41,731 bases of DNA from a virus. Made by a program: the position numbers and the translations under genes. Each line of letters opens with the position of its first letter. Within the stretch, counting starts at the first letter, position 1. Positions 9,511 to 33,872 of this stretch are shown here, one piece after another. Location: positions 1 through 41,731 of IMG/VR virus record IMGVR_UViG_3300032296_000148; one strand, 5' to 3'. A model generated the notes under the pieces. That model saw only the letters and a list, made by a program, of their open reading frames with translations. It did no database searches and was not told where the DNA came from.

Positions 9511-9697
9511 GGTGAAGTACCCGTGGGAGAAGACACCCCACGGGCATAGCTTTTTTGTACCGAGCCTTGACCCCGTAGCTACGCGCCGTGAGGGTCTGCA
9601 AGAAGGTATCCGTGTGCGAATACTCGGGAAGGCCGTCACTTGTATCTGGAACGGTCAACTCGGGGTTATGTTTACTCGCTCACGGCAGCAACGTTGA
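9482..9697 (+). CDS. small conserved phage protein after the primase gene
   Basis: This 71-residue protein starts at ATG 9482, overlapping the end of the primase-helicase by 29 bases. It reads Y-P-W-E-K-T-P-H-G-H-S-F-F-V-P-S-L-D, then R-R-E-G-L, then G-Q-L-G-V-M-F-T-R. The order PW-(x)-GxxFFVPxL-xx-R-REGL-x-RI is a phage family I have seen directly after or within replication genes. It is a small beta-rich fold, function unknown. The last 26 bases (9672-9697) overlap the end of the large minus-strand gene, so the two transcription units collide here. Confidence 0.7.
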   Translation: MTSQQKSLLKVKYPWEKTPHGHSFFVPSLDPVATRREGLQEGIRVRILGKAVTCIWNGQLGVMFTRSRQQR

Positions 9698-12600
9698 ACG
9701 CCTTGGCAAGTGCGATCTTGGCTTGGCGAATCTCTTTCAGGCGCTCCGTCTTCTCATCCGACGACAGCGCTGATGCCCTGATCTGCTTCTCCAGCGTGGT
9801 CAACTCGCCCACATCCTTCTTGAAGTCCTCGGCAATATCAGCGAACACGATCTCACGGCTGTAGCGTTGAGCCAGCGCCTGTGCTTCTGCGGCACGCCCC
9901 TCGTCCACATACTTGTCGAACGTGTTCTTGATCTGCTCATACCGCTTGGCACGCTCATACATCGAGGTAATCTGCCCCGGCGCATCAGAGGCTTGGAACA
10001 GCGAGCCAATAACCGGCATCTCTGACAGGCGCTTGGACGGCGCTTCTCTATCGGTTGGCAGTATCGCGTTTGCCGCCTGCATGATGGACAGACCCAAACC
10101 GCCTGAGTAGCCTGCGACGAAATGCTCAATCATGATAGGCGACACCGTGCCGCCTGTGGCTTGGCTAAACAGCTTGGCAAGCTCGCTAGTACCCGCACGT
10201 ACGCGCTCGGTTGGCAGCAACTCCTGCTCCTGCGCACTTTCAATGTCACGTCCGGTGAAGAACGACTTGTTGAGCGAGGCTTCAATGATTGGCTTGATGG
10301 CCTGCGGCTGCGTCGATACACCCAACGGAGAAGACATAGCCACCATACCACCCAGCGCCTTCAGTACCTCACGAGCCTCTGCGTCCTTGCGGCCTGCCAG
10401 TATGACGGCCTCCGGCAGCGCCTTAAAGATCAGACCCACTTCAAACGGGATCGGTATCTTCAGCGGGTCTTTCACGCCGGGAATACGCACAAACCAGTTC
10501 TGCAAGCGGGTGCGCATGTCAGCGTTCTCGTATGCCTCATCGTCCTGCATCATGGAGGCGTACATCACGGTCAGCGCACTCATCATGGAGGCGCGGGTGT
10601 AGAACTTCTGCTTTTGTTTGAGCGCTTCTGCGTACGGCAGCTTGCCGGTAAACGCTTCCCATAACACGTTCAAGCCCTGAATCTGTGCGTTCAAGAACGG
10701 CACCATCATGTTGAGCTTGTACAGCGTGCCGGAGGTACCGCGCTTGCTGAAGTTCATGGCTTCGAGCGCGGCGAGTGTAGCCTCCATATCCGACAGACCC
10801 TGCTTGCGGAAGTCGTTGTAGAGCGCCACACGGGATGAAGCATCTGCCTTCATCGCCACCCGATCCAGTTTCGCCAGCGCCTGCTCCCAACCCGGCTTGC
10901 CAGATACAAGCTGGAGCATGATTTTTTCCATGTCTTCTGAGGTGCCAGAAATAATCTGACCACCCAGCACACCGCGCTCCTGCAAAGCTTTCTCGCCTTC
11001 ACTCTTACCCGCCCACATCTTCTGGAGTTCGCCCAAGGCACCGACCACCGGCTTCATATCACCGCCAGTCAGCAAATAGTTTGACGTTGAGTCACGGACA
11101 ATCTGGCGCACAGAGTACGCAGGGTTACGGGTAATCATGGCACGCATAAACCGCGCAGGCACGCTCATCAACTTAACGAACCCGCCCATCTGCGTGACGG
11201 TGCCGTGCAACCCTTGCACTAGCATTTCAGCAGGAACGCCAATCGCGTCGGTATCTACCCTTGCGTGGTATGGCACGCCGTCAATCTTGAAGCGAATGAC
11301 TTCCGGGCTGGCGGGGCCGGGACCTTTGACAATACCTTTAGTCTTGCCGGTCAGTTCATTGACTTTGCCTTGCAGCAGTCCCGCGCTTTGCAACGTGAAC
11401 GCCACTTGCTTGGTTGCCATATTGCGCAGACCCATGTCGGTCAGCAGCGCCGTGTTTTGCAAAGCAGCGGTGAAGAAGTCTTTGGTGTCTTCCTTGCCAC
11501 CCACCAACTCATTCAGATACGGCTGATTCTTGATGTCACCAATAGTTATCGGGGTACGGTCGCCAATCTCAAACAGGACGTTGTCACCCTGTACACGGTA
11601 GAAAGGCACGTAGTCGTTAGTCGATGACAACTGAGCGCCAAGCTCTTTGGAGATAGCGCCTGTCTTGACCAGCCAGTTGATCAAACCCTTGTTGTATTCG
11701 TTGTACTGCTTACGTGCAGCTACAAACTCAGGTATTGCGTCACCGGCTGCGATAGTGGCTTCGATCTCTGCGGTGGTCGGTGGCTTCTCAAAGTTCAGTA
11801 CACGAGCGCCTACACGCTTGGCACGGTAGGCTTTTAGGTAGGCATCAAACGCGTCGCGTACGGCGGCTGAGTTACCCAGACCTTTGACCTTTGCCAGTGT
11901 GTCAGCAACGTCTTTCAGAGAAGCAGTGCCTGCCTCCTTGATGATGTAGTTGCCCTTGTCGTCCTGCTCAATAGTACGTGCGCCGTTGGTAGCGGTTGTG
12001 GCGGTAAACGCCATACGCTGATCGTGCATGCGAGCGTAGTACATCATCTGCATAGCTTCCGCAGAGTTCTTCAGGTACGACGCAACTTCTTTCAGCGGAG
12101 CAAACCGGTCAACCAGCGCGGTACGAGCGCCCAGACCTGTGACGTTGGAGAACACCTTGTTAGTGCTCTCTGCGGGAGCCACGCCTGTCTTGGCATTAAA
12201 TGCAGCAAATGCAGGGTTAGCATCGGCAGCGTACTGCGCAGCACCACGACGGAACACAGTCTCGCCAGACGGATTACGGTATGCGCCTAGTGTGTTGTTG
12301 TAAACGCCTTTGTGGGCTTCACGCAGCAGGTAGAAGATGTCTGATGTCGAGGCCGTGGGCAGTTCAGCAAAACCCATCTTACGCATCGCGGCACGTACAG
12401 CGCCAATCAACGCCTTGATAAAGTCACCTGCTTTTGCCAAGAACCCCTTATCAACCGAGGCTTCCTGTACGTGCGCCAACATCTCACGCAGAGCGCGGGT
12501 TTGGCCTTCACGCAGGATGTTGTTCAGTTCTTCTTTGCTTGCACCACGTTCTTCTGCTTCACTGTACTTACGGGCGGCTGCTTCGGCAGCGTCCATGACA

Positions 12601-15600
12601 TCTTCTTCAACACCGAGTTGCCGTGCAACACCAATGATGCCATCTTTGTTTTTGTCCAGCGCCTTGTACAGCGCGTCCATGCCCTCACGGCCAAGCAGCG
12701 TGTCTGTGCCATAGTGCCCTAGTTCGTGCGCAACGGTCTTCTCCAGATCAAGCAAACTGGTGTGGTGGTTACCAATGACAACTACTGTGCCGTCCGGCAG
12801 CACGCCGCCCTTGACCTTGCTAGTGTTTACATCCAGACCATCACGCGCCATGGCTTTTATAAACTTGCCCGGTGCGTTCAACAGGTCTTTGGCGTAAACA
12901 AACTTGATGCCCTTTGGCAGCTTGGCTTTTACCTTGTCAATAAACGCCTGCGCTTGGTCAGCGTCAACTGCGTTTTCAACAGCTTCGCCAATACGGAAGG
13001 CCGTACCATCTTGATCAATCGGCAGCATGTCAGCGCCGTAGCCCGTATCCTCGCCAAGTTTTTCAAAGTATTTAGCCTCTGCATCGCGCAGGGCTTTCTT
13101 ATACTCGGCGCTCTTGGCACCGTACTTCTGCTTTGCAAGTTCAACTTTAGAGTCTGACTTAGCAAAGCGTGCAGCCGCATCACGGCCCTGCGCGGTGCGC
13201 AGCGGCTTGGTAGCTTTTGGTCGAGGCGCTACATCGGTGACGTTTGCCTGACGCGCCAGCGTGCCAGCTACAGTAGCAAAATCTTCAAGGTTTTCTTTAG
13301 CACCCGCACGCTGTGCTTTGGCTACCGGTTCGTCTGCCTCAACTTCGTCTTCAATTGACAGACGGCGCTCTTTACTAATAGGCACAGACTTCTTCGCTGG
13401 TTTACCCCAACCCACACCTTTAACTGGCTCACGGGTAGCATACGCACCTTCAGTTTTCTTTTGCCTGACAGGCAGCCCTGTTTCTTTTTCAACGATCTGT
13501 ACTTTTTCACCCGTCTTCTTGTTTTCACGTTCAACAGGCACCACGGTGCGTTTGGTTTTTAGCAAGCCTTCGCCTGTGGCAACACGACGCTTGAACTCTT
13601 CAGCCTGTTTGCTGGCCGCTTCTTTGGCGTTAGCAAGTTCTTTCTCAGCTAAGGCGACCTGTGCACGCTGCTTGTTAGCTTCAGCTTGCGCCTGACGACG
13701 TGGGCCACCCACAAGATCAACATTTGCCAACTTGTCCTGAAGCTCTTTGAGCTTGGCTTTTTCTCTAACGATGCGCTCATCCGCCGCCGCCAGTAAGGCT
13801 TCATTTCTCGTGTCTCCTTCAGCAAACTCTTTGTTTGCTTCTCTGCGTTGCTTTTTAACCGCATCAACATTTTTCTCTGCTTCTTTAACTTGACGCTCTA
13901 GCTCCGCAATACGCGAGGCAGACATGTTCTTTTGTTTAGCCGTACGTAGTTCAGACTGTCTGGCAATCAGAGTTTGCTCCGCAGCCACTAACAATTCTTT
14001 ATCAAATTCTGTGTCGTACGAAATTATTCTGCTGGCGCGAAAACGAGCTTCTTCTAGACCTTCTCGTACGGCTTTGATTTCCTGCTCTAACGCACTTGCT
14101 TCCTCAAACAAAGCATCAAACTCCGGTGACATGCGAGCGTCTTCTGGCATGGCTGCTTTTAGTTCGGCCAACCGTGCTTCAAATACCGGTACTTGTTGTT
14201 CAAAGCGTTGAATGATCGGGCCGTAGATAGCCTGACCACGTTGTGCACGAATCTGCGCGGTCAAGTCCCGCATCGTTTCTAAGATGTTTGTTTCTTTACT
14301 ACGAATTTGATCTTTTAGCTTACGCGCTTTGTCTTCTGCTTGCGATGCCTCGTATGGCCCGCGCTTACCTACAGCCGCTTCAGCAGCTTTAGCGTCTGCT
14401 ATTGTTTGCTTTAGCGCCGCAACTTGCTTGGACCCAAGAAACTTCTGAAAGTTTGCTGCGCTGGCACGGACTACACCAAGGTCTTCAGCGCCAAATAATG
14501 CACGTTGCCCACTTTCTATACCCGGTGCCTGCGCTTCGCGCATTGAACGCACTGCACTTGCAAGCCCCGGCAACTCATCTTGTACGCGCTGCCCAAGCAT
14601 TACACGGTTAGCGACATCCTCTGCACGATCTAAAACTTCGCGGGTGGCTGTGCCATTGTCGATGGAATCTTGAACTTGCGTTAGTAGCTGACGGGCATTA
14701 CGCGGGATTGTGCTGCTTGGTATCGCACGCTCAAGCAAACCGCCCACATAATCACGCTGACGGCGTAACTGTCCTTCCAAAGTCTGCGCAGTCTCGCCAC
14801 GTTCTTCAGCAACACGTTGTGCTTCACGATAGTTGCTTTGTGCAGTTAATGGGCCTTCTGTTGGTAGCCCCTGCTTTCGTACTTCAGGACGTGCCGTCAG
14901 TAAACGTGCGCGAATAACATCAAGCTGTCGCGCCAAAGCTTTCTCTGATGCCTGACCGTTTATATACGCATCAAGCGCGACGTTCATTTGTGCTGCTGCC
15001 CGTGTCGCATCTTCAGTATTTATTGGCTGTTGATTTTCGGCTGCACGCTGGTTAGCCACTTGATTTAACAACGAATCAATGTAACGCGGCTTGGCTTCTA
15101 CTGCCTGCTGGCGCAGGATGTCGGAGGTAGCAGACGCAAACTTGCGCATGTCAGGACGAGAACTGTCCAGCGTCATGCCGGTGGCAATCTTGTCCAGATT
15201 CTCTTTCATCTTCACCAACGCATCATCTGCCTGCTCGGCAAAATCGTTAGCCTTTGTTCTGTAGTTCTGCTTCTGTAAGCCGGGTTCGACAGTCACGCCC
15301 GGCGCACGTTGTTTAGCTTCACGAGATATTGTGCCTGCAAGATCGCCAGCTAACTGTTCTGTACGTTGTTCGCTCGCTTGTTTTTCAAAATCACGTTGTT
15401 GTGATTCAATTTGATTAAACAGACGGCCCGCTTCTTCCATTTCGCGCTGACCACGAACATCCGCGCCCATACGTTGCAGAGCTTCTTTTTCAGCCGCAAG
15501 CGTTTCTTTGGGTAAATTTCTAAGCTGCCCACGCAACGCTGAAAGTATGGTACGGCTTTCTTTGGCAGAGAAACCGGGGATAGGTAGCTCGTTATCCACC

Positions 15601-17129
15601 AGCGCCTGCGCTCGTGCCGGATTGCGCATCAGAATATCAACCGCGCCGTTACGAAGGTCTATGTCAGACAGCGGCTGTATGTTGTTGTAGTACTGCAAAC
15701 CAGCTAAAGCGTCTTCCGTATCTTTCTCAAGACGTGCAGTAGGAGACTCAGCTTCAAACGGAGCCGGTGCCTGCAAATCCGCCATAGTACGAGCTTCTGG
15801 AACAGCAGCGGCAGCAGGTTCTTCAGCTAACCCCATTTGCTCCAGTTGATACTCTTGCGGAGTCATGCCAGCCACGCGTGTTTGTTCGCGCAGTGCAGGT
15901 AGCTTGGCTTTAACTTCGTTGTATTCAGGCATCAACTCCTGAATCTGTGTGCGCAGACCTTTGAGTTCTTCTGTCTTGGCGATGTAGGCTTCTTTGGCTT
16001 CGTCGGTCGCACCCTTACCCGGCTTCTTACCGCGCTCTGCCAGCAGCGCTTTCTCTTGAGCCTTCAGCGCATCAAACCTATCGCCCACACCCAGCACGTA
16101 CTGCGGGTCTTGGAGTTGTGCCTGTCTTTCGGCTTCACGTTGTGCTGTTTCAGCTTCTTTTTGTAACGCCTCGCCCCGCGCTACCTCTTCCCGCGCACCG
16201 CCACGCTGTGCTACTCGACCTGCTGCACCCACTGGCGTACCAAACAACGTCGCACCATACGCAGCTTCTTGGTATTCCTTTAACGCGTCGTTAGAGAGCA
16301 GAGGTAGGTCAGCCTGCCAACGCTCCAGCATTTGCTGAGTTACTTCGGTAGGGATTTCAGCAACTGCACCACGTGCGCCGCCTTTTGCTAGTACCTTCTT
16401 GAGACTTTCTTCTGCCAGTTCACGTGTGGCTGGGTTGACCAGCGCCTGCGCGGCTTCTCTCTCGCCAATACCTAGCATGCGACCTACCAGCTTGCCGCCA
16501 AAGGTAAAGCCCAACATCAAACCTTCCGCAGCGGTTTGCCCGACAGCCGACGTTAAAGTTTTACCCGGCTCTTGTGCAAGTCCTTCGGTAGCACGGCGCT
16601 CTGCACCTGTACCGTACGATTGTAAAAAGATGGGTGACAAAGCACCTATGGCACCGCCAACAAGCGGACCAGCAGGACCAAAAGGCGTACCTGCTATGGC
16701 ACCCAAACGCCCGCCAGCGAAGGCTTCTGCAAGCTGTGGGGACTGTTCTGCAATGAACTTCGGGGCTTGGCGCATCACCTCGCCAGCGGCGGGGAATAGC
16801 CCTTCTTCAGCGTACTTCTTCTTGACAGCTTCGAGGCTCAGTTGTGAGGGGGTCTCGGCCTCTAGTGCACGGGCGCGAGCCGCGCCGCGTTGAGCGGCTT
16901 CTTCTGCACCAAACGGAGTTTCCAGCGCGGTGCGCTGTGACGACAGTAACTTCTTGAGACCGGCAACACCACTTTCAATGATGCCAACATCACGGCGCGG
17001 TTCTTCTTGCTGCCCTTGCTGTGCCAGAAACGAGTTGAACATACTCGTCGCTTGTTCTGGTGTGGTGCCAACAGGAACCTCAAAACGCGCAATCCGGCCA
17101 TCCGGCATCTGAAACCGTGCTATCGGCAT
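9672..17129 (-). CDS. giant polyvalent virion protein with HExxH metallopeptidase and LPD38-like C-terminus
   Basis: At 2,485 residues this is the largest gene. The order is: a short N-terminal module (P-D-G-R-I-A-R-F-E-V-P, then G-T-T-P-E-Q-A); Gly/Ala-rich hydrophobic segments at about 130-225 that might insert in membranes; roughly 900 residues of charged coiled coil; a zinc metallopeptidase-like domain with H-E-L-G-H at 1468-1472; and from about 2000 a region with N-P-A-Y-S-V-R-Q-I-V-R-D that I recall as large-polyvalent-protein domain LPD38. Polyvalent proteins are thought to be injected with the DNA and protect it or cut host proteins. As last gene of the tail/ejection group, the likely role is DNA ejection plus early protease action in the host. 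The third zinc ligand is not certain (perhaps the Glu in R-E-M-L-A-H-V-Q-E). Confidence 0.85.
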   Translation of the reverse strand: MPIARFQMPDGRIARFEVPVGTTPEQATSMFNSFLAQQGQQEEPRRDVGIIESGVAGLKKLLSSQRTALETPFGAEEAAQRGAARARALEAETPSQLSLEAVKKKYAEEGLFPAAGEVMRQAPKFIAEQSPQLAEAFAGGRLGAIAGTPFGPAGPLVGGAIGALSPIFLQSYGTGAERRATEGLAQEPGKTLTSAVGQTAAEGLMLGFTFGGKLVGRMLGIGEREAAQALVNPATRELAEESLKKVLAKGGARGAVAEIPTEVTQQMLERWQADLPLLSNDALKEYQEAAYGATLFGTPVGAAGRVAQRGGAREEVARGEALQKEAETAQREAERQAQLQDPQYVLGVGDRFDALKAQEKALLAERGKKPGKGATDEAKEAYIAKTEELKGLRTQIQELMPEYNEVKAKLPALREQTRVAGMTPQEYQLEQMGLAEEPAAAAVPEARTMADLQAPAPFEAESPTARLEKDTEDALAGLQYYNNIQPLSDIDLRNGAVDILMRNPARAQALVDNELPIPGFSAKESRTILSALRGQLRNLPKETLAAEKEALQRMGADVRGQREMEEAGRLFNQIESQQRDFEKQASEQRTEQLAGDLAGTISREAKQRAPGVTVEPGLQKQNYRTKANDFAEQADDALVKMKENLDKIATGMTLDSSRPDMRKFASATSDILRQQAVEAKPRYIDSLLNQVANQRAAENQQPINTEDATRAAAQMNVALDAYINGQASEKALARQLDVIRARLLTARPEVRKQGLPTEGPLTAQSNYREAQRVAEERGETAQTLEGQLRRQRDYVGGLLERAIPSSTIPRNARQLLTQVQDSIDNGTATREVLDRAEDVANRVMLGQRVQDELPGLASAVRSMREAQAPGIESGQRALFGAEDLGVVRASAANFQKFLGSKQVAALKQTIADAKAAEAAVGKRGPYEASQAEDKARKLKDQIRSKETNILETMRDLTAQIRAQRGQAIYGPIIQRFEQQVPVFEARLAELKAAMPEDARMSPEFDALFEEASALEQEIKAVREGLEEARFRASRIISYDTEFDKELLVAAEQTLIARQSELRTAKQKNMSASRIAELERQVKEAEKNVDAVKKQRREANKEFAEGDTRNEALLAAADERIVREKAKLKELQDKLANVDLVGGPRRQAQAEANKQRAQVALAEKELANAKEAASKQAEEFKRRVATGEGLLKTKRTVVPVERENKKTGEKVQIVEKETGLPVRQKKTEGAYATREPVKGVGWGKPAKKSVPISKERRLSIEDEVEADEPVAKAQRAGAKENLEDFATVAGTLARQANVTDVAPRPKATKPLRTAQGRDAAARFAKSDSKVELAKQKYGAKSAEYKKALRDAEAKYFEKLGEDTGYGADMLPIDQDGTAFRIGEAVENAVDADQAQAFIDKVKAKLPKGIKFVYAKDLLNAPGKFIKAMARDGLDVNTSKVKGGVLPDGTVVVIGNHHTSLLDLEKTVAHELGHYGTDTLLGREGMDALYKALDKNKDGIIGVARQLGVEEDVMDAAEAAARKYSEAEERGASKEELNNILREGQTRALREMLAHVQEASVDKGFLAKAGDFIKALIGAVRAAMRKMGFAELPTASTSDIFYLLREAHKGVYNNTLGAYRNPSGETVFRRGAAQYAADANPAFAAFNAKTGVAPAESTNKVFSNVTGLGARTALVDRFAPLKEVASYLKNSAEAMQMMYYARMHDQRMAFTATTATNGARTIEQDDKGNYIIKEAGTASLKDVADTLAKVKGLGNSAAVRDAFDAYLKAYRAKRVGARVLNFEKPPTTAEIEATIAAGDAIPEFVAARKQYNEYNKGLINWLVKTGAISKELGAQLSSTNDYVPFYRVQGDNVLFEIGDRTPITIGDIKNQPYLNELVGGKEDTKDFFTAALQNTALLTDMGLRNMATKQVAFTLQSAGLLQGKVNELTGKTKGIVKGPGPASPEVIRFKIDGVPYHARVDTDAIGVPAEMLVQGLHGTVTQMGGFVKLMSVPARFMRAMITRNPAYSVRQIVRDSTSNYLLTGGDMKPVVGALGELQKMWAGKSEGEKALQERGVLGGQIISGTSEDMEKIMLQLVSGKPGWEQALAKLDRVAMKADASSRVALYNDFRKQGLSDMEATLAALEAMNFSKRGTSGTLYKLNMMVPFLNAQIQGLNVLWEAFTGKLPYAEALKQKQKFYTRASMMSALTVMYASMMQDDEAYENADMRTRLQNWFVRIPGVKDPLKIPIPFEVGLIFKALPEAVILAGRKDAEAREVLKALGGMVAMSSPLGVSTQPQAIKPIIEASLNKSFFTGRDIESAQEQELLPTERVRAGTSELAKLFSQATGGTVSPIMIEHFVAGYSGGLGLSIMQAANAILPTDREAPSKRLSEMPVIGSLFQASDAPGQITSMYERAKRYEQIKNTFDKYVDEGRAAEAQALAQRYSREIVFADIAEDFKKDVGELTTLEKQIRASALSSDEKTERLKEIRQAKIALAKAFNVAAVSE

Positions 17130-22559: not shown

Positions 22560-24698
22560 CTACCTCCTGCCGTCCGGTCTGACATCAATCCGGGGCACAC
22601 CTAACTGCCATTGCGTACCCAACGTATCTGACTCGATCTTGAATGCCATCTGCCGCCCACGTACACGGCTATACACAATCTCGGTGAACTCTTGCACGTT
22701 GTATACCTGCTGCCCCGCATAAGACTGAGAAGACTGGATTGTTGGGCTCGGGGATACCCCATACCCAGAACCGGGGTTCTGCCGTGGGCGCACTACAAAC
22801 CTAACGCGAGGCTTCTCTGGTGACGATGTAGTGGAATTATCAAATGTAATGTCCGGCAACATGCGCCACACAAACCCGTAGTTATGTCCATCGCCAATAT
22901 CAAAGTCTGACGATTGAATGTACGCGCTGATTGCACTAGGCGGGTTGGTAGTGCCGTCATCAACTGCGGCTTCGTGATATACCAATAAGTTACCGCTAGT
23001 TGCCGCCATCGGGAACTGACGTAGCGGGCTGTCAAGCCACGCCGTTCTATCCATCGTGCCGTAATACCACACACGATCCAGATAGTTGAAGATTACATAA
23101 CGGTCGATGACATCGGAATTAGCTGAGCAGTAAAACCACCATACTTCTGAGTAGCCTTCATTAACACCGGCAAAGAATTGCTCCTGCTGGTCGCGATTAA
23201 TGTCACCAAATACATACTGACGCAGTGAGCATGGAAGCGTTTCAACCCGCCCTGAGTATGTATAGAACTTATCTACACCCATCCAATAAATGACACCCGC
23301 AGCGGTTGCCATCGCATTTTGAGATGCTATGGATATATTGTCAGCAAGTAGTGTGAACCCCCAAACAAGCGGAGGGCCGAGATACTGCATGGAGTAAATG
23401 GCAGCGTCCGTCCAGATAACAATTTCTTGCCGAGTCTGCAAAGCGCCGACAATATAGGAGCCGTGCGAAAGACGGTAATCACCCGCTTGGTTTGTTGGAG
23501 TTGGCTCCCAATCCGTGTAGCTTTCTTGCGCAGTCCAACGAATCACCATCGGATCAAGCGTAGTAGATGCGTACGTACCACTTGGGTCGTTTGCACCGAA
23601 GGCAATCACAATTCGCGTCGAATCCGACACCATTATTTCGTTCACTAGCGACGGCGTGTAAGTTCCGGATACCACCGTACCGCGTGTAGTCAGCGCCGGA
23701 TTTGCCCCAGTCCCCGGTTGCCAGATATAAATGGCCCCACCACGAGGGTTGAATAGTAAATACTCGCCAAAGTTTGATTGACTCCACAGGCGCAACTGCA
23801 CTTCGGTCGTTGACCCGTTTGAAAAGCCTTCGCCCCAACCGGGGAATGTGGTGGATTGCGATACTAAAGCGCCATTGCTTTGAGATGCAGCAGTTGTGCC
23901 ATCAGCACCGCGAACGCAGCCAGTAAAATCTGTCGCCGTTTTACCTGAGTATGTGATGTACTCGCCGTTAATCCAAATAGCTCCACTGGCAGTAAATGCA
24001 GATGTGCTGACTACTGTAATGGTAGTCACGCTGTTATTAATGCCACCGTTTAACGTAGACGATGACGTGCCAGAAATAAACCCGCCCCATGGTGGAACAC
24101 CCCATCCGGTGCCAACGGTGTTAATAGCAGGACCAACACTGATTTGATACGCCGCATCGGTAGCGGAGCCTCCATTACCTACGTCAGATGAGTTTGCCGC
24201 AACAGACGAGGTAATCGTGTATGAAGTGCCAGACAGCACAGACTGAATCTGAAATTCAGAGTTAAGAATAGCGGCTGTTATATTGCCGCCAAGACTTACT
24301 GCACTTGAGAAAGTAACAAAGTCGCCAGCCTGTAGGCTAGAAACTCCGGTATCAGTTACCGTGATTGTGGTTGAGCCGTTAGTCGCTGCAAACGTAGTAG
24401 TGTTTGTTGTGTTAGCGCGGATAGGCGTGATGTCGTAATAAGCACCGCCACTCTCTATATAAAACTTAAGGTTGGTGCCAACACCAGCAAGATTAAAACC
24501 TTTAAGCGTCACCCAGTTCCATAACGAACGACATATACCTTGAAAGGTGTTGTACGACAAAGCTGCCCAACCACCAATTTTCTCCGGGTAGCCGGAACGA
24601 AAGCGCACTTTATCGCACTCAAACCAACCACCTTCATTGGCAAGCGTCGTGCCTTCGCGGTTTACACCGGGGCGGAACTGAAGTTTTTGCAAAGGCAT
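22560..24698 (-). CDS. tail nozzle / stabilisation protein (T7 gp12 or P22 gp10-like)
   Basis: This 712-residue protein starts at ATG 24698 with AAGGA upstream. The opening F-R-P-G-V-N-R-E-G-T and C-D-K-V-R-F-R-S-G-Y-P-E-K-I-G-G-W is the signature of the packaged-DNA-stabilisation/tail tubular family. Later segments W-T-D-A-A-I-Y-S-M-Q-Y and V-W-G-F-T-L-L are typical blades of its beta-propeller. Residues about 95-280 are an insertion of two small beta modules, one ending G-C-V-R-G-A-D-G-T-T-A, a pattern also found in the 315-residue adaptor at 37810. It would form the end of the short tail that holds the DNA in and attaches the tip proteins. Confidence 0.8.
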   Translation of the reverse strand: MPLQKLQFRPGVNREGTTLANEGGWFECDKVRFRSGYPEKIGGWAALSYNTFQGICRSLWNWVTLKGFNLAGVGTNLKFYIESGGAYYDITPIRANTTNTTTFAATNGSTTITVTDTGVSSLQAGDFVTFSSAVSLGGNITAAILNSEFQIQSVLSGTSYTITSSVAANSSDVGNGGSATDAAYQISVGPAINTVGTGWGVPPWGGFISGTSSSTLNGGINNSVTTITVVSTSAFTASGAIWINGEYITYSGKTATDFTGCVRGADGTTAASQSNGALVSQSTTFPGWGEGFSNGSTTEVQLRLWSQSNFGEYLLFNPRGGAIYIWQPGTGANPALTTRGTVVSGTYTPSLVNEIMVSDSTRIVIAFGANDPSGTYASTTLDPMVIRWTAQESYTDWEPTPTNQAGDYRLSHGSYIVGALQTRQEIVIWTDAAIYSMQYLGPPLVWGFTLLADNISIASQNAMATAAGVIYWMGVDKFYTYSGRVETLPCSLRQYVFGDINRDQQEQFFAGVNEGYSEVWWFYCSANSDVIDRYVIFNYLDRVWYYGTMDRTAWLDSPLRQFPMAATSGNLLVYHEAAVDDGTTNPPSAISAYIQSSDFDIGDGHNYGFVWRMLPDITFDNSTTSSPEKPRVRFVVRPRQNPGSGYGVSPSPTIQSSQSYAGQQVYNVQEFTEIVYSRVRGRQMAFKIESDTLGTQWQLGVPRIDVRPDGRR

Positions 24699-27338: not shown

Positions 27339-27640
27339 TTGTCGTACATCCTTTCAATCAGTATTTCCTTGCGCAGTTCCCGCATCTTCCGCACCTCATG
27401 CACCGCTGCTTGCGTCGCGTAGTACATGTCGTAATACATAAACGCTAAGACCGGCATCACAATAAAGAACATCAAGAGAACCGCCATCACCACAACAATC
27501 AGTGACCAAGGGACATTCTCATCGTCGCGCTTCTTGTCGTCAGCCACAGGAGTCCCACCGCCCATATAACTACGAACACCACTGCCGAGACCCATGCCAC
27601 CTTTGACTTGATTTCCGCTATTCTTTTTCTGCGTCGCCAT
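27335..27640 (-). CDS. small membrane protein of the lysis region
   Basis: This 101-residue protein has a membrane span at about residues 45-69 (W-S-L-I-V-V-V-M-A-V-L-L-M-F-F-I-V-M-P), with a polar Gly-rich N-terminus before it and a charged helix after it (H-E-V-R-K-M-R-E-L-R-K-E-I-L). From ATG 27640 it overlaps the preceding gene out of frame by 142 bases. An alternative start at ATG 27595 has a somewhat better AAGGTGG site, so the N-terminus is uncertain. It stops in an ATGA overlap with the endolysin. It may be a lysis-related membrane protein; no family is recognised. Confidence 0.55.
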   Translation of the reverse strand: MATQKKNSGNQVKGGMGLGSGVRSYMGGGTPVADDKKRDDENVPWSLIVVVMAVLLMFFIVMPVLAFMYYDMYYATQAAVHEVRKMRELRKEILIERMYDK

Positions 27641-28185
27641 GTTGCTATCTGTGCAAGTCTAAGTTCCTCTGCGTGGGCTACCTCCTGCTCGGCAACGATC
27701 CGCTGCCACATCTCTTCAAACTTACCCCACAGCGCACCCAACTCCGGCGGGGCTTTGTACACCATCGTCTCGCGTATTTCTACCAGCATCGCATCGAGCC
27801 TCGCGGTAATCAGAATGCGCTTTAATGCCCGCCTGCCAATACTTTCTTCACCCTTGTATACCTGCTTTGCTTCCAACTGCTCTTTCAAGAACACCTTGCT
27901 GATTGCATCATACGCATCCATTAAAGCGCCCAACTGATTGCCGATGTCGGTGAATACGTCGTTCGGATCAGCCTTTGCCACTTCCTGCACCCGCTGCACT
28001 TCCGCGTGATACTGCTGCTTTTGTACAGGTGTTGGGTCAACAATCTTGTTGTACTGCTCCTTTAAATCTTTCAGTACGTCACTAACATCCCCCGCCGCGC
28101 CTTTGATCTCTTTGTATAACTGACAGCCTTTTTTGACTGCCGCGACAGCGGCGTTTGCAGCAGCCAGTAGGGTTAGCGGGTCAAT
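27499..28185 (-). CDS. membrane-anchored phage protein with probable ATT start
   Basis: The 228-residue frame is open from ATT at 28185-28183, directly after an in-frame TAA; GGAGG lies five bases before the ATT. The N-terminus would read I(M)-D-P-L-T-L-L-A-A-A-N-A-A-V, which resembles conserved starts of phage proteins of this type. The next usable start is GTG 27999, 62 codons in, with no binding site, so a short form would lose that region. The middle is helical; a membrane span lies at about residues 196-215 (V-A-W-V-S-A-V-V-F-V-V-I-W-A-V). Its place before the lysis genes suggests membrane or lysis timing, which is inference. Confidence 0.7.
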   Translation of the reverse strand: MDPLTLLAAANAAVAAVKKGCQLYKEIKGAAGDVSDVLKDLKEQYNKIVDPTPVQKQQYHAEVQRVQEVAKADPNDVFTDIGNQLGALMDAYDAISKVFLKEQLEAKQVYKGEESIGRRALKRILITARLDAMLVEIRETMVYKAPPELGALWGKFEEMWQRIVAEQEVAHAEELRLAQIATWRRRKRIAEIKSKVAWVSAVVFVVIWAVGLLWLTTRSATMRMSLGH

Positions 28186-28196
28186 TTATTCCTCCA

Positions 28197-28799
28197 TCAA
28201 CGAAATGCAGGGCCACCAACCCACAGTACTAATGAACGACGGATGCCTTTTGTTACTGGCGCTACTCGGTGTAATGTATACGACGGAAAGAACCAAGCCC
28301 GTCCTTTTATACACTCAAGCGTTTGTACTTCGTCGTTACATGTTTTAACCTGAAATTCTCCGCCTTCAAACTCTGAGGGGTCTGACAGGAGCATGGCAAA
28401 AGATAGCTTGCGGGGAACATGACGATCACTTGGCGACGCGTCTATGTGCCAGCTATAGTGGCCCTGCTGCTCTTCCGTATATAACCCTAACTGCATTGGC
28501 TCATGAAATCCGGTCAAATCAAAATGAAAATATCTGCTGTTTACTTCAGCAACCGCATTTGCCAGTTTTTCCCATATCGGAAGAAGTTCGTGCTTCATGC
28601 CAATCCATGCCACTTCGCTAGACCGCACAGATGGATTTACCGTGTTTTGTTCCCCGCCGCCGCCAATACACCCCGGCTGTAAATTTAACCACTCTGGCTG
28701 CGCCAATAACAAATTAATATCTTCATTAGATAAAAATCCCTCCCAGTATGCGAGGTGGTCTTTACCGGGAATACTGCGCGGGGGTATTGGATATATCAT
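28197..28799 (-). CDS. Fe(II)/2-oxoglutarate dioxygenase, PKHD-type prolyl hydroxylase-like (oxygenase 1)
   Basis: This 200-residue enzyme starts at ATG 28799 (ATGA overlap; a start at 28826 would read into the preceding gene). The double-stranded beta-helix metal site is complete: Y-S-W-H-I-D (H118 and D120), distal H177 in L-H-R-V, and R187/R188 in G-I-R-R-S-L-V-L-W for 2-oxoglutarate. The layout is close to the PKHD/PiuC prolyl-hydroxylase-like family. It would oxidise a protein side chain or small molecule using O2, Fe(II) and 2-oxoglutarate. Last gene of a seven-gene overlapping cassette, just before the lysis region. The substrate is unknown. Confidence 0.85.
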   Translation of the reverse strand: MIYPIPPRSIPGKDHLAYWEGFLSNEDINLLLAQPEWLNLQPGCIGGGGEQNTVNPSVRSSEVAWIGMKHELLPIWEKLANAVAEVNSRYFHFDLTGFHEPMQLGLYTEEQQGHYSWHIDASPSDRHVPRKLSFAMLLSDPSEFEGGEFQVKTCNDEVQTLECIKGRAWFFPSYTLHRVAPVTKGIRRSLVLWVGGPAFR

Positions 28800-29281
28800 G
28801 TGTACCCCAACGGTTTGTTTGCCCAAGGATTAACGGCCACCGATAAGCGAGTTCCGGTAAACGGCTCCACTCCATGTAACAAGCCGGGAGCAAATACAAG
28901 CATTCTGTTGGTTATTGGTTTCACTCTTGCCGTCTCCGTCATAAAATCTCCGCCTACTACATCGACATCAGCGTAATACACGATGCTACACAGTGGATGT
29001 GCGGTATTTCCCGATGTTTCGTAAAGCTTTTCGTCCTTATCTACATGCCAGTCAGGTCTTGTTCCGTAGTGCGCCCAGTATTCACTACCTACCATGCGGG
29101 ACAAATCAAAAAACTTTGCCGCTCGTTTTAACAGCAGCGCCATCGGCGAGTTATCCCCATCAAGTTTTTCAACACTACCCGACTCCCAACGCATTTTTCT
29201 TTCTTCGTCCCCACATGCAAAATAATCAACCACTGCTTGTCGATGTGGCTCATCCAATACGTTGTCTAAAACAACTAACAT
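28796..29281 (-). CDS. Fe(II)/2-oxoglutarate dioxygenase (oxygenase 2)
   Basis: This 161-residue enzyme is shorter than oxygenase 1 and clearly different in sequence. Metal ligands are in P-D-W-H-V-D-K-D-E (H79, D81) and G-L-L-H-G-V-E-P (H136); R145 in G-T-R-L-S-V-A-V would bind 2-oxoglutarate. Strands I-V-Y-Y-A-D-V and M-L-V-F-A-P-G complete the jelly roll. It is similar to small phage 2OG oxygenases seen in cyanophages and other aquatic phages. ATG at 29281 overlaps the preceding gene by 7 bases, and it overlaps the next gene by ATGA. Probable protein-modifying or nucleotide-modifying hydroxylase; substrate unknown. Confidence 0.8.
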   Translation of the reverse strand: MLVVLDNVLDEPHRQAVVDYFACGDEERKMRWESGSVEKLDGDNSPMALLLKRAAKFFDLSRMVGSEYWAHYGTRPDWHVDKDEKLYETSGNTAHPLCSIVYYADVDVVGGDFMTETARVKPITNRMLVFAPGLLHGVEPFTGTRLSVAVNPWANKPLGYT

Positions 29282-29817
29282 TTATTAAATACCATAGCCA
29301 ACGTAAACCGATACTGTGCCGCCGCATGTGACTGAGGGCGAATAGTATGTGGCATCTTCGCATCAAAAACTAGCAGGCGTCCGGGCGTATACGGCGATGC
29401 AAACACAATATCCTTGTGGTCCTCGCTAAAAAATAATGTCTCTCCATGCCAGCCATCAAACCATTCAAGATTGACGTAATACAACAAAATTTTATCTTCT
29501 GGATGCGAATGAACATAGTTTGTATCTGCTGCCGTGGATAAATTTAAAATTGTTTTGTTAAGCACATACCCGTCAAGTTCTTTGGCTGCTGGCGAATTGG
29601 CAAGGTTTTTTAAAATACCTAACCTATCTATATCTTCTGGCGAATACACAGAATGCAAAAATCTATTTGTTTGTTTTTCAACAATATTGCCATCCGCCCA
29701 ACCAATTACAAAATTTGAGTTTTGAGCAAACTGATAAACTACATCGCGATAGTGCGCATCAAACAAATTGTCATAGACGCAAATGCGCTTACCATTTTGA
29801 AAGAATAATTCTTTCAT
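29275..29817 (-). CDS. putative Fe(II)/2-oxoglutarate dioxygenase with HxE triad (oxygenase 3)
   Basis: This 180-residue protein starts at ATG 29817 in an ATGA overlap (GGA six bases upstream; ATG 29823 is an alternative that adds two residues). The jelly-roll pattern is visible: Y-V-H-S-H-P-E-D (H105 and E107, or H103 and H105), L-L-Y-Y-V-N-L, G-R-L-L-V-F-D-A, distal H157 in M-P-H-T-I-R, and R170 in Q-Y-R-F-T-L-A-M-V. The usual HxD appears as HxE, which occurs in some members; activity is less certain than for its neighbours. Base composition is AT-rich compared with the flanking modules. Confidence 0.75.
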   Translation of the reverse strand: MKELFFQNGKRICVYDNLFDAHYRDVVYQFAQNSNFVIGWADGNIVEKQTNRFLHSVYSPEDIDRLGILKNLANSPAAKELDGYVLNKTILNLSTAADTNYVHSHPEDKILLYYVNLEWFDGWHGETLFFSEDHKDIVFASPYTPGRLLVFDAKMPHTIRPQSHAAAQYRFTLAMVFNKC

Positions 29818-30383
29818 TTGCATTCCATAGCTGCACTTCTGTTTTTTCCGTAGGAATAGTTGTCGCGCATCGAGCTGTCACCTGCTTCAGAAGTATGTTG
29901 ACCATTCTTGCGAACAAAATGTAGAAATACTTGCCCAGAATAGTAATCATCTGGACCATCACACCTATTTCGCCAATGCTCTACATCACAGCCGGGGTAA
30001 ATAACTCCATCACCTTCGCCAAGATCAATACGTTTCCCACCCATATAGATAGGCCATGCGTAATGATGGGACCTGCCAAGCTGTATAGTAATGCTGACCT
30101 CACAAGCTGGTCTGTCTGTGTGCTTCTCAAGAACATCACCATTGCTATACAACCTTGCATACGCGTAAGTTGGTATTAATTCGTCGCCAACAACTTGTTC
30201 CACTGTGGGCCATAGGCGTTCATGTAATGTTTCAAACATATATTCATGGTCCAAAATTGTTTTGGCACCGGGTATTTGCGGATCACCTTTTGGGTTTAAA
30301 TCAGCCTGCCGAAGTAATACATGCGTAAAAAAATGACAAAACTCAATAGGCACAATTTTTGGCATTAGTATTATTGTTTTCAT
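29814..30383 (-). CDS. Fe(II)/2-oxoglutarate dioxygenase, cyanophage prolyl-hydroxylase-like (oxygenase 4)
   Basis: This 189-residue protein carries L-E-K-H-T-D-R-P-A-C-E-V-S (H88, D90) and, after G-E-G-D-G-V-I-Y-P-G-C, the distal histidine H136 in V-E-H-W-R. The final strand is S-G-Q-V-F-L-H-F-V. H-T-D-R-P-x-C-E with P-G-C-D-x-E-H-W-R is the signature I know from the P4H-like oxygenases of cyanophages. The usual arginine that binds 2-oxoglutarate is not obvious in the last strand (Q151 sits nearby). It starts at ATG 30383 in an ATGA overlap with oxygenase 5. Substrate unknown; a protein proline is a reasonable guess from family. Confidence 0.82.
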   Translation of the reverse strand: MKTIILMPKIVPIEFCHFFTHVLLRQADLNPKGDPQIPGAKTILDHEYMFETLHERLWPTVEQVVGDELIPTYAYARLYSNGDVLEKHTDRPACEVSITIQLGRSHHYAWPIYMGGKRIDLGEGDGVIYPGCDVEHWRNRCDGPDDYYSGQVFLHFVRKNGQHTSEAGDSSMRDNYSYGKNRSAAMECK

Positions 30384-30925
30384 TTAGCACCGGCTAAAAA
30401 GCAATCTAATACTTTCTCATACGGCATCTTCATATACACTTGCAGCACATGCCTTGGCAAGCTATCGTTCCCTACTACCGCATGGGCTTTGCGTGTATTT
30501 AAAAGCCATACATCTCCGTCATTTGCGGTATAACTCAACACCGGGGACAAAAATTCTGGTTTTACCATATAGTAATTATGCCCGCGATCTAATGCTGTCG
30601 CGTCATCCGGTACATAGTTACCATCATAAAATATGGTCGTTTCGCCATTGGTTTTGTAATAAAAATTAATTGTGCAGTGTTCTTCTGTATGTACATGGGG
30701 GCCAAGCGAATAAATGTTATTTTTACTTACCCCCAAGCAGTGTTTTCTTAGCCCCGCCGGTAGCATTCTTAAAATATTTGCAGTTTCTTGTTTTGTTAAA
30801 CGTTTACGAGAAACAACGGAAAGCCCGTCTGCCCGCACTCTACCGTGACTCCCAAGATGTTCAGTATCTGCGAAAAAGTCTATAGGTGCAGTACAAGTAA
30901 GCTGTAAACGTGCCGCGTAACTCAT
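30380..30925 (-). CDS. putative Fe(II)/2-oxoglutarate dioxygenase or cupin with HxE triad (oxygenase 5)
   Basis: This 181-residue protein starts at ATG 30925 (ATGA overlap; 30946 would extend into the preceding gene). A metal site is suggested by G-P-H-V-H-T-E-E-H (H79, E81) and R-K-A-H-A-V (H148); R158 in L-P-R-H-V-L-Q-V-Y could bind 2-oxoglutarate. Strands I-N-F-Y-Y-K-T and V-W-L-L-N-T fit a jelly roll, as in aspartyl/asparaginyl hydroxylase-like or cupin enzymes. It is less certain than oxygenases 1, 2 and 4. It is AT-rich and overlaps genes on both sides. Confidence 0.68.
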   Translation of the reverse strand: MSYAARLQLTCTAPIDFFADTEHLGSHGRVRADGLSVVSRKRLTKQETANILRMLPAGLRKHCLGVSKNNIYSLGPHVHTEEHCTINFYYKTNGETTIFYDGNYVPDDATALDRGHNYYMVKPEFLSPVLSYTANDGDVWLLNTRKAHAVVGNDSLPRHVLQVYMKMPYEKVLDCFLAGAK

Positions 30926-31428
30926 GTCACCATAAGGCCGTAGCAATCCGTTTGCGCAACAACTGTTTTTTCAGAAGAGCTGAATCGAATTTGTCTCGGG
31001 CCGGATAGCACTTTGTCTTCAATAAGTAAATCACCACGACCAAGAAATAGCTGCGCCCCTTGTGGCACCACTGTTTGTTCATTTGCACTCAGGTAAAATT
31101 TGGCAAAATGAGCAGACAGCGGTAACTTGTCTGAGTTCATAAAAGGGCTGACGCATAACACTTCTAAATCTTCAGGTATTTCTAATCGCCAACTGCCGTG
31201 TGGTTCTGGATCAGTTAACGTACAAGAACCTTGTTCGCGAACCAAACGCTCTCCTGTCTGCTGATTAACAAGCACACTACTGCCTGATATGTTGTACCAA
31301 ATAAACCGAAAAGTAGCGTCAACACTAATTAAGTTATCTACTACTGGGTCCATAGTAACTATTTCATCTTTGGCAAATTTAGTTATTGCGACAACAAACC
31401 CAAACGCATTGTGCACACTGGTCTGCAT
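30922..31428 (-). CDS. beta-rich, possibly cupin-like protein of the oxygenase cassette
   Basis: This 168-residue protein starts at ATG 31428 with GGAGGTG upstream. It is almost all beta strands (F-R-F-I-W-Y-N-I-S-G-S-S-V-L-V, L-E-V-L-C-V-S-P-F, A-Q-L-F-L-G-R-G-D-L-L-I) with a pattern V-P-Q-G-A-Q-L-F, as in cupins. No clear His/Glu metal set is visible, so it may be a non-catalytic binding protein. Its last codons overlap the start of oxygenase 5. It might bind the substrate or chaperone it for the enzymes downstream; this is inference from position and fold impression. Confidence 0.6.
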   Translation of the reverse strand: MQTSVHNAFGFVVAITKFAKDEIVTMDPVVDNLISVDATFRFIWYNISGSSVLVNQQTGERLVREQGSCTLTDPEPHGSWRLEIPEDLEVLCVSPFMNSDKLPLSAHFAKFYLSANEQTVVPQGAQLFLGRGDLLIEDKVLSGPRQIRFSSSEKTVVAQTDCYGLMVT

Positions 31429-31429
31429 A

Positions 31430-31768
31430 TCACACCTCCACAACCGCATCGGCAGGAGGCGGGATTAATTGATCAACCGGATATGAATTTTCTTGTCCTA
31501 CCATTGCGCGATACTCTGCAACCTTCGTGGGATCTGCAATAAACTTTTCCTCACGCTCTTGCTGTTCCGCATGATAGACCCCCGCCATAGCAATACGTCT
31601 TTTAATTTCAACGGAATCCGATATGTCAGGCCACATATTCATAGGCTGATACGCATATGCTGGATAATCATCGGGGTTTTGGGACTTCGTTGTGTCCGAT
31701 GCAAACGACACAATCAATGAATATGATGGCTCGTCAAACGCATGTATCTTCATGTAAATAGTATTCAT
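31430..31768 (-). CDS. small protein between adhesin and oxygenase cassette, possible fibre assembly factor
   Basis: The start chosen is ATG 31768 with GGAG upstream, giving 112 residues; 31819 would overlap the adhesin gene. The sequence reads M-K-I-H-A-F-D-E-P-S-Y-S-L-I-V-S-F, then Y-A-Y-Q-P-M-N-M-W-P-D, then a charged helix (Y-H-A-E-Q-Q-E-R-E-E-K-F) and a Pro-rich end. A beta N-terminus plus helical C-terminus directly after a fibre/adhesin gene recalls tail-fibre assembly chaperones, but no family is certain. It is first of the seven overlapping genes 28197-31768. Confidence 0.6.
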   Translation of the reverse strand: MNTIYMKIHAFDEPSYSLIVSFASDTTKSQNPDDYPAYAYQPMNMWPDISDSVEIKRRIAMAGVYHAEQQEREEKFIADPTKVAEYRAMVGQENSYPVDQLIPPPADAVVEV

Positions 31769-31779
31769 TACTGCTCCTA

Positions 31780-32784
31780 TTAAGCTACGCCGCCTTGTCG
31801 TGTACCTGTGACAGGCCAAGTTACAAATGGATTGCCAACAATATAGTTACCTGCCGCGCCGCCCGAGCCTCCAGTGCCACTATATCCATTTCCATTTGGA
31901 AACGGGCCGGTAAACCCTGCGGCTCCAGCCGATCCAGCAGCCCCACGACCCCCACCAGCTCCACCCGCGCCACTAGCAAGTGGCGTCCATCCGGGGTTTA
32001 CTCGTGAAGGGCCTCCAGACCCACCAGCCGGTGAAGTTCCCGCATTACCACTAAAGCCCGGACCACTGTTTAAGCCCGGCCCCGGACCAGCAGCACCTCC
32101 GCCACCACCACCGCCACCACTTGTGCCAGCGCCGCCGCCGCCACCGCCACCGCCATAACCACCCCACCAAGCTTTAGAATATGAACGAAGGCCCCCACCG
32201 CCACCACCGCCACCCCCACCGCCAGCAATAGTTCCGTTATTGGTAATGATGGTTGGGCGATTTACGTAAACCGCGCTGCCAGCACCACTGCCAGCACTTC
32301 CGGGGTTACCAGCCGTATTAAGAGGCACACCCGCAGGTCCGGGCGCAGTGCCGCCAGCACCGCCTGTTCCACCCATTCCTTGAATCAATCCGTTATTTAC
32401 AATTCTTACAGTGTCACCGGGGTTAAACGACGATGGTACTAATAAAGCATAAGCAGGTACTGTCGTACTGCCAACTGTTACACCGGGGTTAATTGTTAAC
32501 ACAAGATCGGTTACCCCCGCTATATACCCCGGCCCACGATTTGTGTATACGTCGTAATTATTTGTATTTGACGCAATCGTCAAACTTACTGGAACTCGAC
32601 TTGAAGAACCGTAAAAATTACCCATCGAGATCGTACCCGACGTAGGGATTGCCGCATTAGTTGGCGTGTTAGGCACCCGCCCACCACCACGATAGTATTC
32701 ATTGAGCGAATGGGGTACCGTACCACCAAATTCGGTGGCAATTGTGTTCATTGATATGGCAGTGCCGGGGCCGGGGATTGGCAT
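31780..32784 (-). CDS. glycine-rich adhesin-like tail protein
   Basis: This 334-residue protein starts at ATG 32784, two bases after the S74 fibre gene. The N-terminal part has T-A-I-S-M-N-T-I-A-T-E-F-G and T-I-S-M-G-N-F-Y-G, a motif pair found in phage collar/tail adhesins. Residues about 136-305 are extremely Gly-rich, with an 11-Gly run (188-198) and others of eight, interleaved with Pro, Ser, Ala and Asn (G-P-G-P-G-L-N-S-G-P-G-F). Such composition is that of polyglycine-II sandwich adhesins, e.g. gp38 of Salmonella phage S16. It probably forms the receptor-binding tip of a fibre. It sits directly before the oxygenase cassette, some members of which may hydroxylate prolines. Confidence 0.75.
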   Translation of the reverse strand: MPIPGPGTAISMNTIATEFGGTVPHSLNEYYRGGGRVPNTPTNAAIPTSGTISMGNFYGSSSRVPVSLTIASNTNNYDVYTNRGPGYIAGVTDLVLTINPGVTVGSTTVPAYALLVPSSFNPGDTVRIVNNGLIQGMGGTGGAGGTAPGPAGVPLNTAGNPGSAGSGAGSAVYVNRPTIITNNGTIAGGGGGGGGGGGLRSYSKAWWGGYGGGGGGGGAGTSGGGGGGGGAAGPGPGLNSGPGFSGNAGTSPAGGSGGPSRVNPGWTPLASGAGGAGGGRGAAGSAGAAGFTGPFPNGNGYSGTGGSGGAAGNYIVGNPFVTWPVTGTRQGGVA

Positions 32785-32786: not shown

Positions 32787-33872
32787 TTAGTTTCCTTTCT
32801 TCAACGCCTCAACTTCAGCACGGAGTTCTTTTATTGCTTCTACAATAAGCGGTAGCGCACGCTCGTAACGGACGGTCATATACTGGGCGTCTATCGGGGC
32901 CGGAGCCACAATCTCGGGTAGTATTTGCTGCATACTTTGTGCGGATACCCCAACTTCCCGCACTACTTCATACCCCAACGCCTGCGCAGTTTCATTAGGT
33001 TCGTAATAAAAACCCTCTAATGAGCACAGCTTATCCAGCGCGTTTTCAATCTTACCAAGTTTATCCTTGAGCCGGTCGTCTGAATAGTATGCCGTGACGT
33101 TATTGGTAGCACGTATTTCACCAGCGGTACCTGAAGCAGCCGTACCTACACCAACAGAGTTAAACTGAGAGTTTTGCGTAGTACTGGTAAATGTAGCCGC
33201 ACTGCCAGTCGTATTCTGGTTCAGTGTCGGCACATCCGCTGCTTGAATGGTGGACATCACTACGTTAGTACCGTTACCGCGCAGGTACTGGCCTGATGTA
33301 ACTGCGCCAGCAAAGGCATTCATCGCGGCTTGTGCTGTTGTTTGCCCGGAGCCACCATTAGAGAGGGATAACGTACCCGTTACACCATTTGCTAAATTAA
33401 CTTGTGCCCATGCGGGATTGTTGGTTGTGCCTGTATTCGCAAGGTAGCGTGTTGCGTTTGTATCTTTGGCTAAACGAACAAAATTATCCGTTGCAGATGC
33501 GTACAAAATGTCACCCTGCGTTGCGCCCATACCGAATGTATCGATAGAGGTGCCATCGACGTTTACTGACCTAGCTGCGGTATAGGTTACAAAAACATCT
33601 TTGGTGCCAGCAGAGAATGTAGTCTTGGTTGGCGCACCAGCGCTTGAAGCAAGTACCGTATCTCTGGATAGCGTGGTGCCGGAGGTGGTATAAGTACCGA
33701 TGCCGACTTCCCACTCAGACGTGCCTTGACCTGCAATGGTGTAGTACGTGGTGTTACCGTTGCCGATAACAGAGAACGATTGAAACCCTGTTGACGCTCC
33801 ATCAAGTGTAATGGTGCCCGTACCAGTAGTAGTGGTGGTTTCTTTAACTCGGTCCGCTAATACTAACGGCAT
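32787..33872 (-). CDS. tail fibre with S74 intramolecular chaperone domain
   Basis: This 361-residue protein starts at ATG 33872 (GAGG upstream). The N-terminal half is beta-rich (T-G-T-I-T-L-D-G-A, then W-E-V-G-I-G-T-Y) like other phage fibres. The C-terminal part has A-Y-Y-S-D-D-R-L-K-D-K (S264, K269), then L-E-G-F-Y-Y, V-S-A-Q-S-M-Q-Q-I-L-P-E and R-A-L-P-L-I-V-E-A-I-K-E-L, which is the Peptidase_S74/endosialidase-type chaperone. It helps the fibre trimerise and then cuts itself off before the Asp of S-D, with Ser and Lys as the catalytic pair. It is one of several fibre genes here. Confidence 0.88.
   Translation of the reverse strand: MPLVLADRVKETTTTTGTGTITLDGASTGFQSFSVIGNGNTTYYTIAGQGTSEWEVGIGTYTTSGTTLSRDTVLASSAGAPTKTTFSAGTKDVFVTYTAARSVNVDGTSIDTFGMGATQGDILYASATDNFVRLAKDTNATRYLANTGTTNNPAWAQVNLANGVTGTLSLSNGGSGQTTAQAAMNAFAGAVTSGQYLRGNGTNVVMSTIQAADVPTLNQNTTGSAATFTSTTQNSQFNSVGVGTAASGTAGEIRATNNVTAYYSDDRLKDKLGKIENALDKLCSLEGFYYEPNETAQALGYEVVREVGVSAQSMQQILPEIVAPAPIDAQYMTVRYERALPLIVEAIKELRAEVEALKKGN

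Follow-up and report, generated by a model that had tools for sequence, protein, structure and literature searches.

The gene block and its layout

The window analysed here is the whole 41,731-base IMG/VR virus record IMGVR_UViG_3300032296_000148, which comes from an uncultured aquatic phage, and the element under study is a block of seven minus-strand genes (28197–31768) which, by the positions of their open reading frames (ORFs), run from G to A and comprise five genes of oxygenase type, a double-cupin gene (F) and gene G. The minus strand carries the tail-side genes of the window in the order I, H, G, F, E, D, C, B, A, listed below by coordinate (2OG, 2-oxoglutarate; aa, amino acids).

28197..28799, minus strand: A, PKHD-type 2OG-Fe(II) oxygenase, 200 aa (PF13640, PHROG 61; triad H118/D120/H177, R187)
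28796..29281, minus strand: B, 2OG-Fe(II) oxygenase, 161 aa (PF13640; triad H79/D81/H136, R145)
29275..29817, minus strand: C, FlmC-like jelly-roll oxygenase, 180 aa (NCBIfam FlmC; predicted HxH site H103/H105/H157, R170)
29814..30383, minus strand: D, probable oxygenase of PHROG 2954 ("ferrochelatase"), 189 aa (H88/D90/H136)
30380..30925, minus strand: E, JmjC/cupin-like jelly-roll protein, 181 aa (AlphaFold2, Foldseek; predicted HxH site H77/H79/H148, R158)
30922..31428, minus strand: F, double cupin-fold protein without conserved metal ligands, 168 aa (AlphaFold2, Foldseek)
31430..31768, minus strand: G, 112-aa protein between adhesin H and the cassette (conserved family)
31780..32784, minus strand: H, Gly-rich tail-tip/adhesin-like protein, 334 aa (PHROG 2056, composition)
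32787..33872, minus strand: I, tail fibre with S74-like C-terminal region, the upstream neighbour (PHROG tail-fibre families)

A preliminary description made from the sequence alone had reported seven minus-strand genes joined mostly by ATGA overlaps, and this was confirmed. ATGA overlaps were found at the F/E, E/D, D/C, and B/A junctions, C and B overlap by 7 bases (ATGTTAG), and G and F are separated by a 1-base gap (TGATATG). The G+C content was 43.5% in the block and 52.4% in the rest of the window, a lower value as expected if the genes are shuffled. Scans for promoters and terminators gave signals no better than those of shuffles.

Oxygenase families and predicted metal sites

A matched PF13640 (2OG-FeII_Oxy_3) at 3.7e-14, above the curated cutoff, as well as PHROG 61 at 5e-33, and B matched PF13640 at 1.7e-6, also above the curated cutoff. 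Both have an HxD...H motif followed by a distal 2OG-binding Arg (R187 and R145, respectively), residues that were 97–100% conserved (100% for R145 of B), and both triads were 100% conserved in relatives. The nearest solved relatives of A in a PDB sequence search were PiuC and prolyl 4-hydroxylases, while the same search with the profiles of B, C, D, and F returned no match. PKHD-type hydroxylases and prolyl 4-hydroxylases (PiuC; the algal and Bacillus enzymes) have fold family and motif in common with A but are standalone cellular enzymes, whose substrates differ or are unknown.

C fell below the Pfam threshold (E 0.011) and matched the NCBIfam FlmC oxygenase model at 3e-14, under that model's curated cutoff; no paper on FlmC was found in the open-access literature. 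The C profile aligned with that of B (probability 96%, E 4.5e-9), which places it in the jelly-roll superfamily. The triad originally proposed for C (H105/E107/H157) did not hold, as relatives replace the Glu of position 107 by N, K, H, or G. The main family never varies at H103 or H105, more distant homologues (L189, L193, L101) have HxD at exactly columns 103/105, and H105 falls on the Asp column when C is aligned to B and phage 2OG enzymes. On these grounds, the active site of C is predicted to be H103/H105/H157, i.e., a three-histidine variant of HxD...H instead of the 2-His-1-carboxylate triad. A search of bacterial and archaeal genomes with the C profile found nothing and hence gave no link to a host or prophage. 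Separately, PHROG 274, which is named "DNA endonuclease V", matched the oxygenases A, B, and C, and a C homologue in cyanophage P-TIM40 (L193:2632-3348) bears that name in RefSeq; judged by these matches, the name is likely a misnomer.

E had no match in Pfam, PHROG, or NCBIfam, and a PDB sequence search with its profile gave chance-level matches only. AlphaFold2 modelled E as a jelly roll with a predicted local distance difference test score (pLDDT) of 89.7, and the best PDB folds in Foldseek were the ribosomal oxygenases YcfD, NO66, and MINA53 (E 1e-4 to 1e-3). These structural neighbours differ from E in length (360–460 vs. 181 aa) and in lacking the HxH of the window clade, and their template modelling score (TM-score) was only about 0.5. 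The triad first assigned to E (H79/E81/H148) was likewise not upheld. In 146 ORFs (73 unique), no residue other than D or H occurs at position 79, and H77 and H148 are invariant, on account of which the site is predicted to be H77/H79/H148, again a three-histidine variant; the window clade has HxH and a sister subfamily HxD. E copies with HxH accompany gene D (27 unique sequences with, 3 without), as opposed to HxD copies (14 with, 29 without), an association with a Fisher p of 8e-7 that is not corrected for shared ancestry. Tandem E genes occur in four phage types (L063, L068, L073, L091), always with the HxH copy first and the HxD copy second.

F and G had no match in Pfam, PHROG, or NCBIfam. 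The preliminary description had called a sixth protein cupin-like, in agreement with the confident two-barrel (double cupin) fold that AlphaFold2 gave for F (pLDDT 95.6). Its top Foldseek matches were cyclic-nucleotide-binding and two-barrel proteins with poor superposition, HutD and ChrR superposed better (TM-score about 0.5), and the closest viral structures were uncharacterised phage proteins. No invariant His, Glu, or Asp metal site was present in 31 sequences of F, so that a metal cupin was ruled out despite the cupin-like fold, and F is probably non-catalytic.

The retained fold of F without metal ligands, together with the departure of HxH from the canonical triad, would fit a virion role for jelly-roll proteins as structural or decoy components instead of enzymes, with C and E as the first members to degenerate. 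We consider this improbable, since the metal positions are strictly conserved, including the restriction of E position 79 to D or H, and no sequence of A, B, or D departs from HxD...H. The block and its junctions thus stood as described, as did the triads of A, B, and D, and two of the five triads did not. The HxH sites of C and E are predicted to bind metal, and such variants would widen the known range of iron sites in the jelly-roll fold.

Gene D and the name ferrochelatase

D matched PHROG 2954 at 4e-42, and its HxD...H (H88/D90/H136) was 100% conserved in 71 aligned sequences. With hhalign, the profile of D alone, from which fused D-A sequences were excluded, aligned to phage 2OG enzymes with a probability of 71% and an E of 3.6e-5, compared to E ≥ 0.29 for unrelated families. 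No basic residue is conserved about 10 positions after the distal His, where the 2OG-binding Arg/Lys would be expected, and R138 at +2 is invariant. Based on motif and profile, D is likely an oxygenase with a putative jelly-roll fold.

The D-like family is the one that cyanophage and pelagiphage annotations name ferrochelatase. Neither D nor two cyanophage "ferrochelatase" proteins matched a ferrochelatase domain in Pfam or NCBIfam at E up to 1, by which this function was rejected for D, and all of them are only about 190 aa long. The phage "ferrochelatase" (PHROG 2954 / 3531; L052:3944-4531; L194 gp67) is thus probably a misnamed jelly-roll oxygenase, and dropping the name would alter how pelagiphage data and seasonal virus data have been interpreted (PMC9599517, PMC11561400). 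In S-SCSM1, a D-type domain is fused to a PF13640 domain, and the authors of that genome described a second oxygenase region, pfam05721, in the fusion protein (PMC9602691). This fusion and the frequent adjacency of D and A suggest that the two may work together.

Tail-side neighbours

G is a conserved family with 134 relatives in IMG/VR and none in cultured phages, and is a possible adhesin chaperone. H matched PHROG 2056 (tail fiber protein, host specificity) at 2.8e-7 and is 29% Gly overall, its last 199 aa being 40% Gly and 8% Pro. With 29 Pro, 25 Asn, and a single Lys in the whole protein, hydroxylation at Pro or Asn would be more plausible than at Lys, and H is a candidate substrate. I matched PHROG tail-fibre families down to 2.7e-29. 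Homologues of window gene 22560-24698 encode a virion protein in HTVC023P and in LUZ24-like Pseudomonas phages; a terL label for the window gene was wrong, the gene encoding a stabilisation/tail-needle-like virion protein.

Conservation across phage loci

Six IMG/VR scans plus a few cultured-phage regions yielded 188 loci, 187 of them with at least one family member, which fall into 99 non-identical groups. The scans returned up to 80 loci each and needed conserved peptides, and the loci share ancestry, so that frequencies are not population estimates. The order H-G-F-E-D-C-B-A was consistent in 1,346 of 1,369 gene pairs and inconsistent in 23 across the groups. The number of jelly-roll proteins did not fall below three, nor was the block confined to the window, its order being largely kept over the 99 groups. 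The families A–E per group numbered five (8 groups), four (36), three (25), two (17), one (9), or none (4), with freely varying subsets (D-A only, E-C-B, E-D-A, E-C-B-A, and others). The F/E overlap recurred in 51 of 59 cases, in 44 as ATGA.

A Gly-rich H lay at most 4 kb upstream in 67 of 67 C, 72 of 72 B, 85 of 86 E, and 86 of 93 D loci (not deduplicated); H did not serve as an anchor in the searches for C, B, and D loci. Five of the seven D loci without an upstream H are overlapping records of one phage type and have D-A just upstream of H-G instead. The median ratio of nonsynonymous to synonymous substitution rates (dN/dS) was 0.063–0.088 for the seven families A–G, with only two pairs for D, and points to strong purifying selection.

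The five families had been described as poorly similar to each other and not a simple tandem duplication, which was borne out by hhalign: no significant link was found between families except for weak A-B and B-C signals, which grow stronger with more sequences. A tandem duplication was rejected because the family profiles align weakly or not significantly.

The slot also takes additional oxygenases, namely ox6 (PF13759-like, also HxH), ox8 and ox9 (PF13640), and ox7 (HxD motif, no Pfam match). A desaturase-like membrane gene (HxxHH) lies inside or at the end of the cassette at about 11 loci (e.g., L084:7769-8509, L099:6400-7134); its product matched PF00487 at 6e-5, below the cutoff. One phage type (L166–L169 and L181) has D-A upstream of H-G, and downstream its slot holds two radical SAM genes as well as members of two more conserved families of small proteins, which may be cupin-like. 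In L001 (IMGVR_UViG_3300033571_000657), the cassette proteins are 100% identical to those of the window over 10 kb, indicating by sequence the same or a near-identical phage.

The desaturase-like genes make modification of host surface lipids or glycans the main rival to action on a virion protein. According to this explanation, LpxO-like acyl hydroxylation and desaturation would, e.g., block superinfection, and the genes would be placed with the adhesin as both follow the host receptor. The ox7 motif resembles enzymes of the Asp/Asn-hydroxylase type, and one of 27 E members matched PF05118 weakly (E 0.042). However, none of A–E matched a lipid hydroxylase above the cutoff, protein hydroxylases are numerous among the closest solved relatives of A and the closest folds of E, and the cassette is presumably read together with late structural genes. 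We regard the lipid or glycan explanation as unlikely, if worth keeping in view.

Known phages and published readings

A DNA-level search in cultured phages gave no match. At the protein level, cultured-phage relatives amounted to 363 records for A and 156 for D, mostly from cyanophages, to few for C and B, to one weak match for E, and to none for F. Cyanophages carry 1–5 and up to 24 (S-SCSM1) 2OG-Fe(II) genes (PMC9602691), and HTVC023P-type pelagiphages have eight non-orthologous 2OG genes, near each other but reported as not adjacent and of unknown function (PMC9599517). Many oxygenases per aquatic phage, often close to tail genes, are therefore already published, and the unusualness claimed in the preliminary description was overstated; what remains uncommon is a contiguous five-family cassette (8 of 99 groups). 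The open-access papers that were found describe no contiguous modular cassette, near-fixed link to a Gly-rich tail-tip protein, or HxH variants, which is no proof of novelty.

The cultured pelagiphage HTVC023P, the one isolate found with a corresponding locus, has a small version of it with homologous A and D genes: gp65 (A family, 1.6e-32), gp66 (weakly ox6-like), gp67 (D family, 4e-46), the Gly-rich gp70, and, next to gp70, gp71 (ox6) stand on the tail side, directly before the homologue of window gene 22560-24698. Unlike in the window, B, C, E, F, and G were not found in the stretch tested and other genes interrupt the oxygenases. The HTVC023P group was read as metabolic genes with a ferrochelatase (PMC9599517). 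T4-like cyanophages (S-SSM5 gp42–gp49; S-SCSM1, PMC9602691) also cluster different 2OG-Fe(II) enzymes, D-type included, in S-SCSM1 close to tail-fibre genes, but are myoviruses with other family combinations and without F or G.

For cyanophages, the oxygenases have been proposed to be ordinary auxiliary metabolic genes by which the phage shifts the metabolism of 2-oxoglutarate, iron, or small molecules in the infected cell (PMC3037559, PMC9602691), and PHROGs lists the families as such. Near-constant adjacency to the adhesin, fixed order, and five-family diversity would be unexpected for bulk 2OG turnover, for which one enzyme could do, and we consider this reading quite unlikely here.

The preliminary description had also named DNA as a possible substrate. 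2OG enzymes are known to modify nucleic acids, and weak PF09859 matches occurred, in cyanophage homologues only. A pathway of DNA or RNA hypermodification is nevertheless highly improbable: A–E gave no TET/JBP- or AlkB-type match, or any nucleic-acid-modifying family above the cutoff, and the genes sit among those for the tail, well away from the replication genes (1.6–9.5 kb).

A proposed oxygenase cassette for the tail adhesin

Our preferred explanation, which we hold tentatively and with somewhat less than even confidence, is a modular cassette of hydroxylases on the tail-adhesin module that would act in parallel on the tail adhesin. The analysis shows which genes are present, their folds or motifs, how far they are conserved, ordered, and linked, and that they are under purifying selection; from this we infer catalysis, substrate, timing, and role as follows. 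A, B, and D, with their standard HxD...H site, would be iron enzymes, C and E relatives with His in place of the acidic ligand (HxH...H), F a metal-free cupin-fold partner, and G a small adhesin-associated protein. Through translational coupling, the enzymes would be made together with the tail adhesin, presumably late in infection. Each enzyme on its own would oxidise, typically hydroxylate, given residues of one of the virion's tail proteins, with the Gly/Pro/Asn-rich adhesin H as the likeliest target, and the modification would adjust how that protein folds, how stable it is, or how it contacts the receptor, with enzyme subsets swapped between phages along with adhesins.

The dedicated modification function proposed in the preliminary description is supported by conserved metal sites, purifying selection, order, and position beside tail-fibre and adhesin genes. 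Action in sequence, as proposed there, is disfavoured, since nearly any subset of the genes turns up in one related phage or another, and members that come and go freely fit parallel enzymes on different residues or substrates better. A virion protein as substrate is further supported by the protein prolyl hydroxylases among the solved relatives of A, the protein-modifying ribosomal oxygenases among the folds of E, the linkage to H, the invariant active sites, the low dN/dS, and the HTVC023P locus.

Several points weigh against a hydroxylase cassette acting on the adhesin. The substrate is one that we infer, and the adjacency in the tail module might come from insertions at the same hot spot. 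Certain cassettes hold desaturase-like or radical SAM proteins, a better fit to lipid or small-molecule chemistry, and cyanophage relatives of the A family also adjoin DNA helicase genes. In D, no 2OG-binding Arg/Lys can be recognised where one would be expected, and C and E, with their HxH sites, may depart from the usual use of 2OG.

A bolder version, which we consider doubtful, is combinatorial post-translational modification of receptor-binding proteins, where shuffled hydroxylases, some of them three-histidine, would diversify the host-contact surface of a polyglycine-type adhesin. Aquatic phages have few unexplained genes commoner than those for 2OG-type oxygenases, which tend to be classed as metabolic, and a conserved, ordered cassette tied to a tail-tip gene offers a concrete, testable substrate. 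Should tail proteins prove to be hydroxylated, many of the so-called "auxiliary metabolic genes" would become virion-maturation enzymes.

Other genes of the window

The minus-strand ORF 9672-17129 encodes a 2,485-aa protein, the sole match of which was PHROG 18222 (unknown function). The gene following the cassette (27499-28185, minus strand) has an apparent ATT start codon with a GGAGG ribosome site. This ATT is kept in the relatives L011, L038, L039, L064, L073, L074, and L160, and other relatives have GTG at the start position or ATG just before it; the gene thus appears to have a conserved AUU start.

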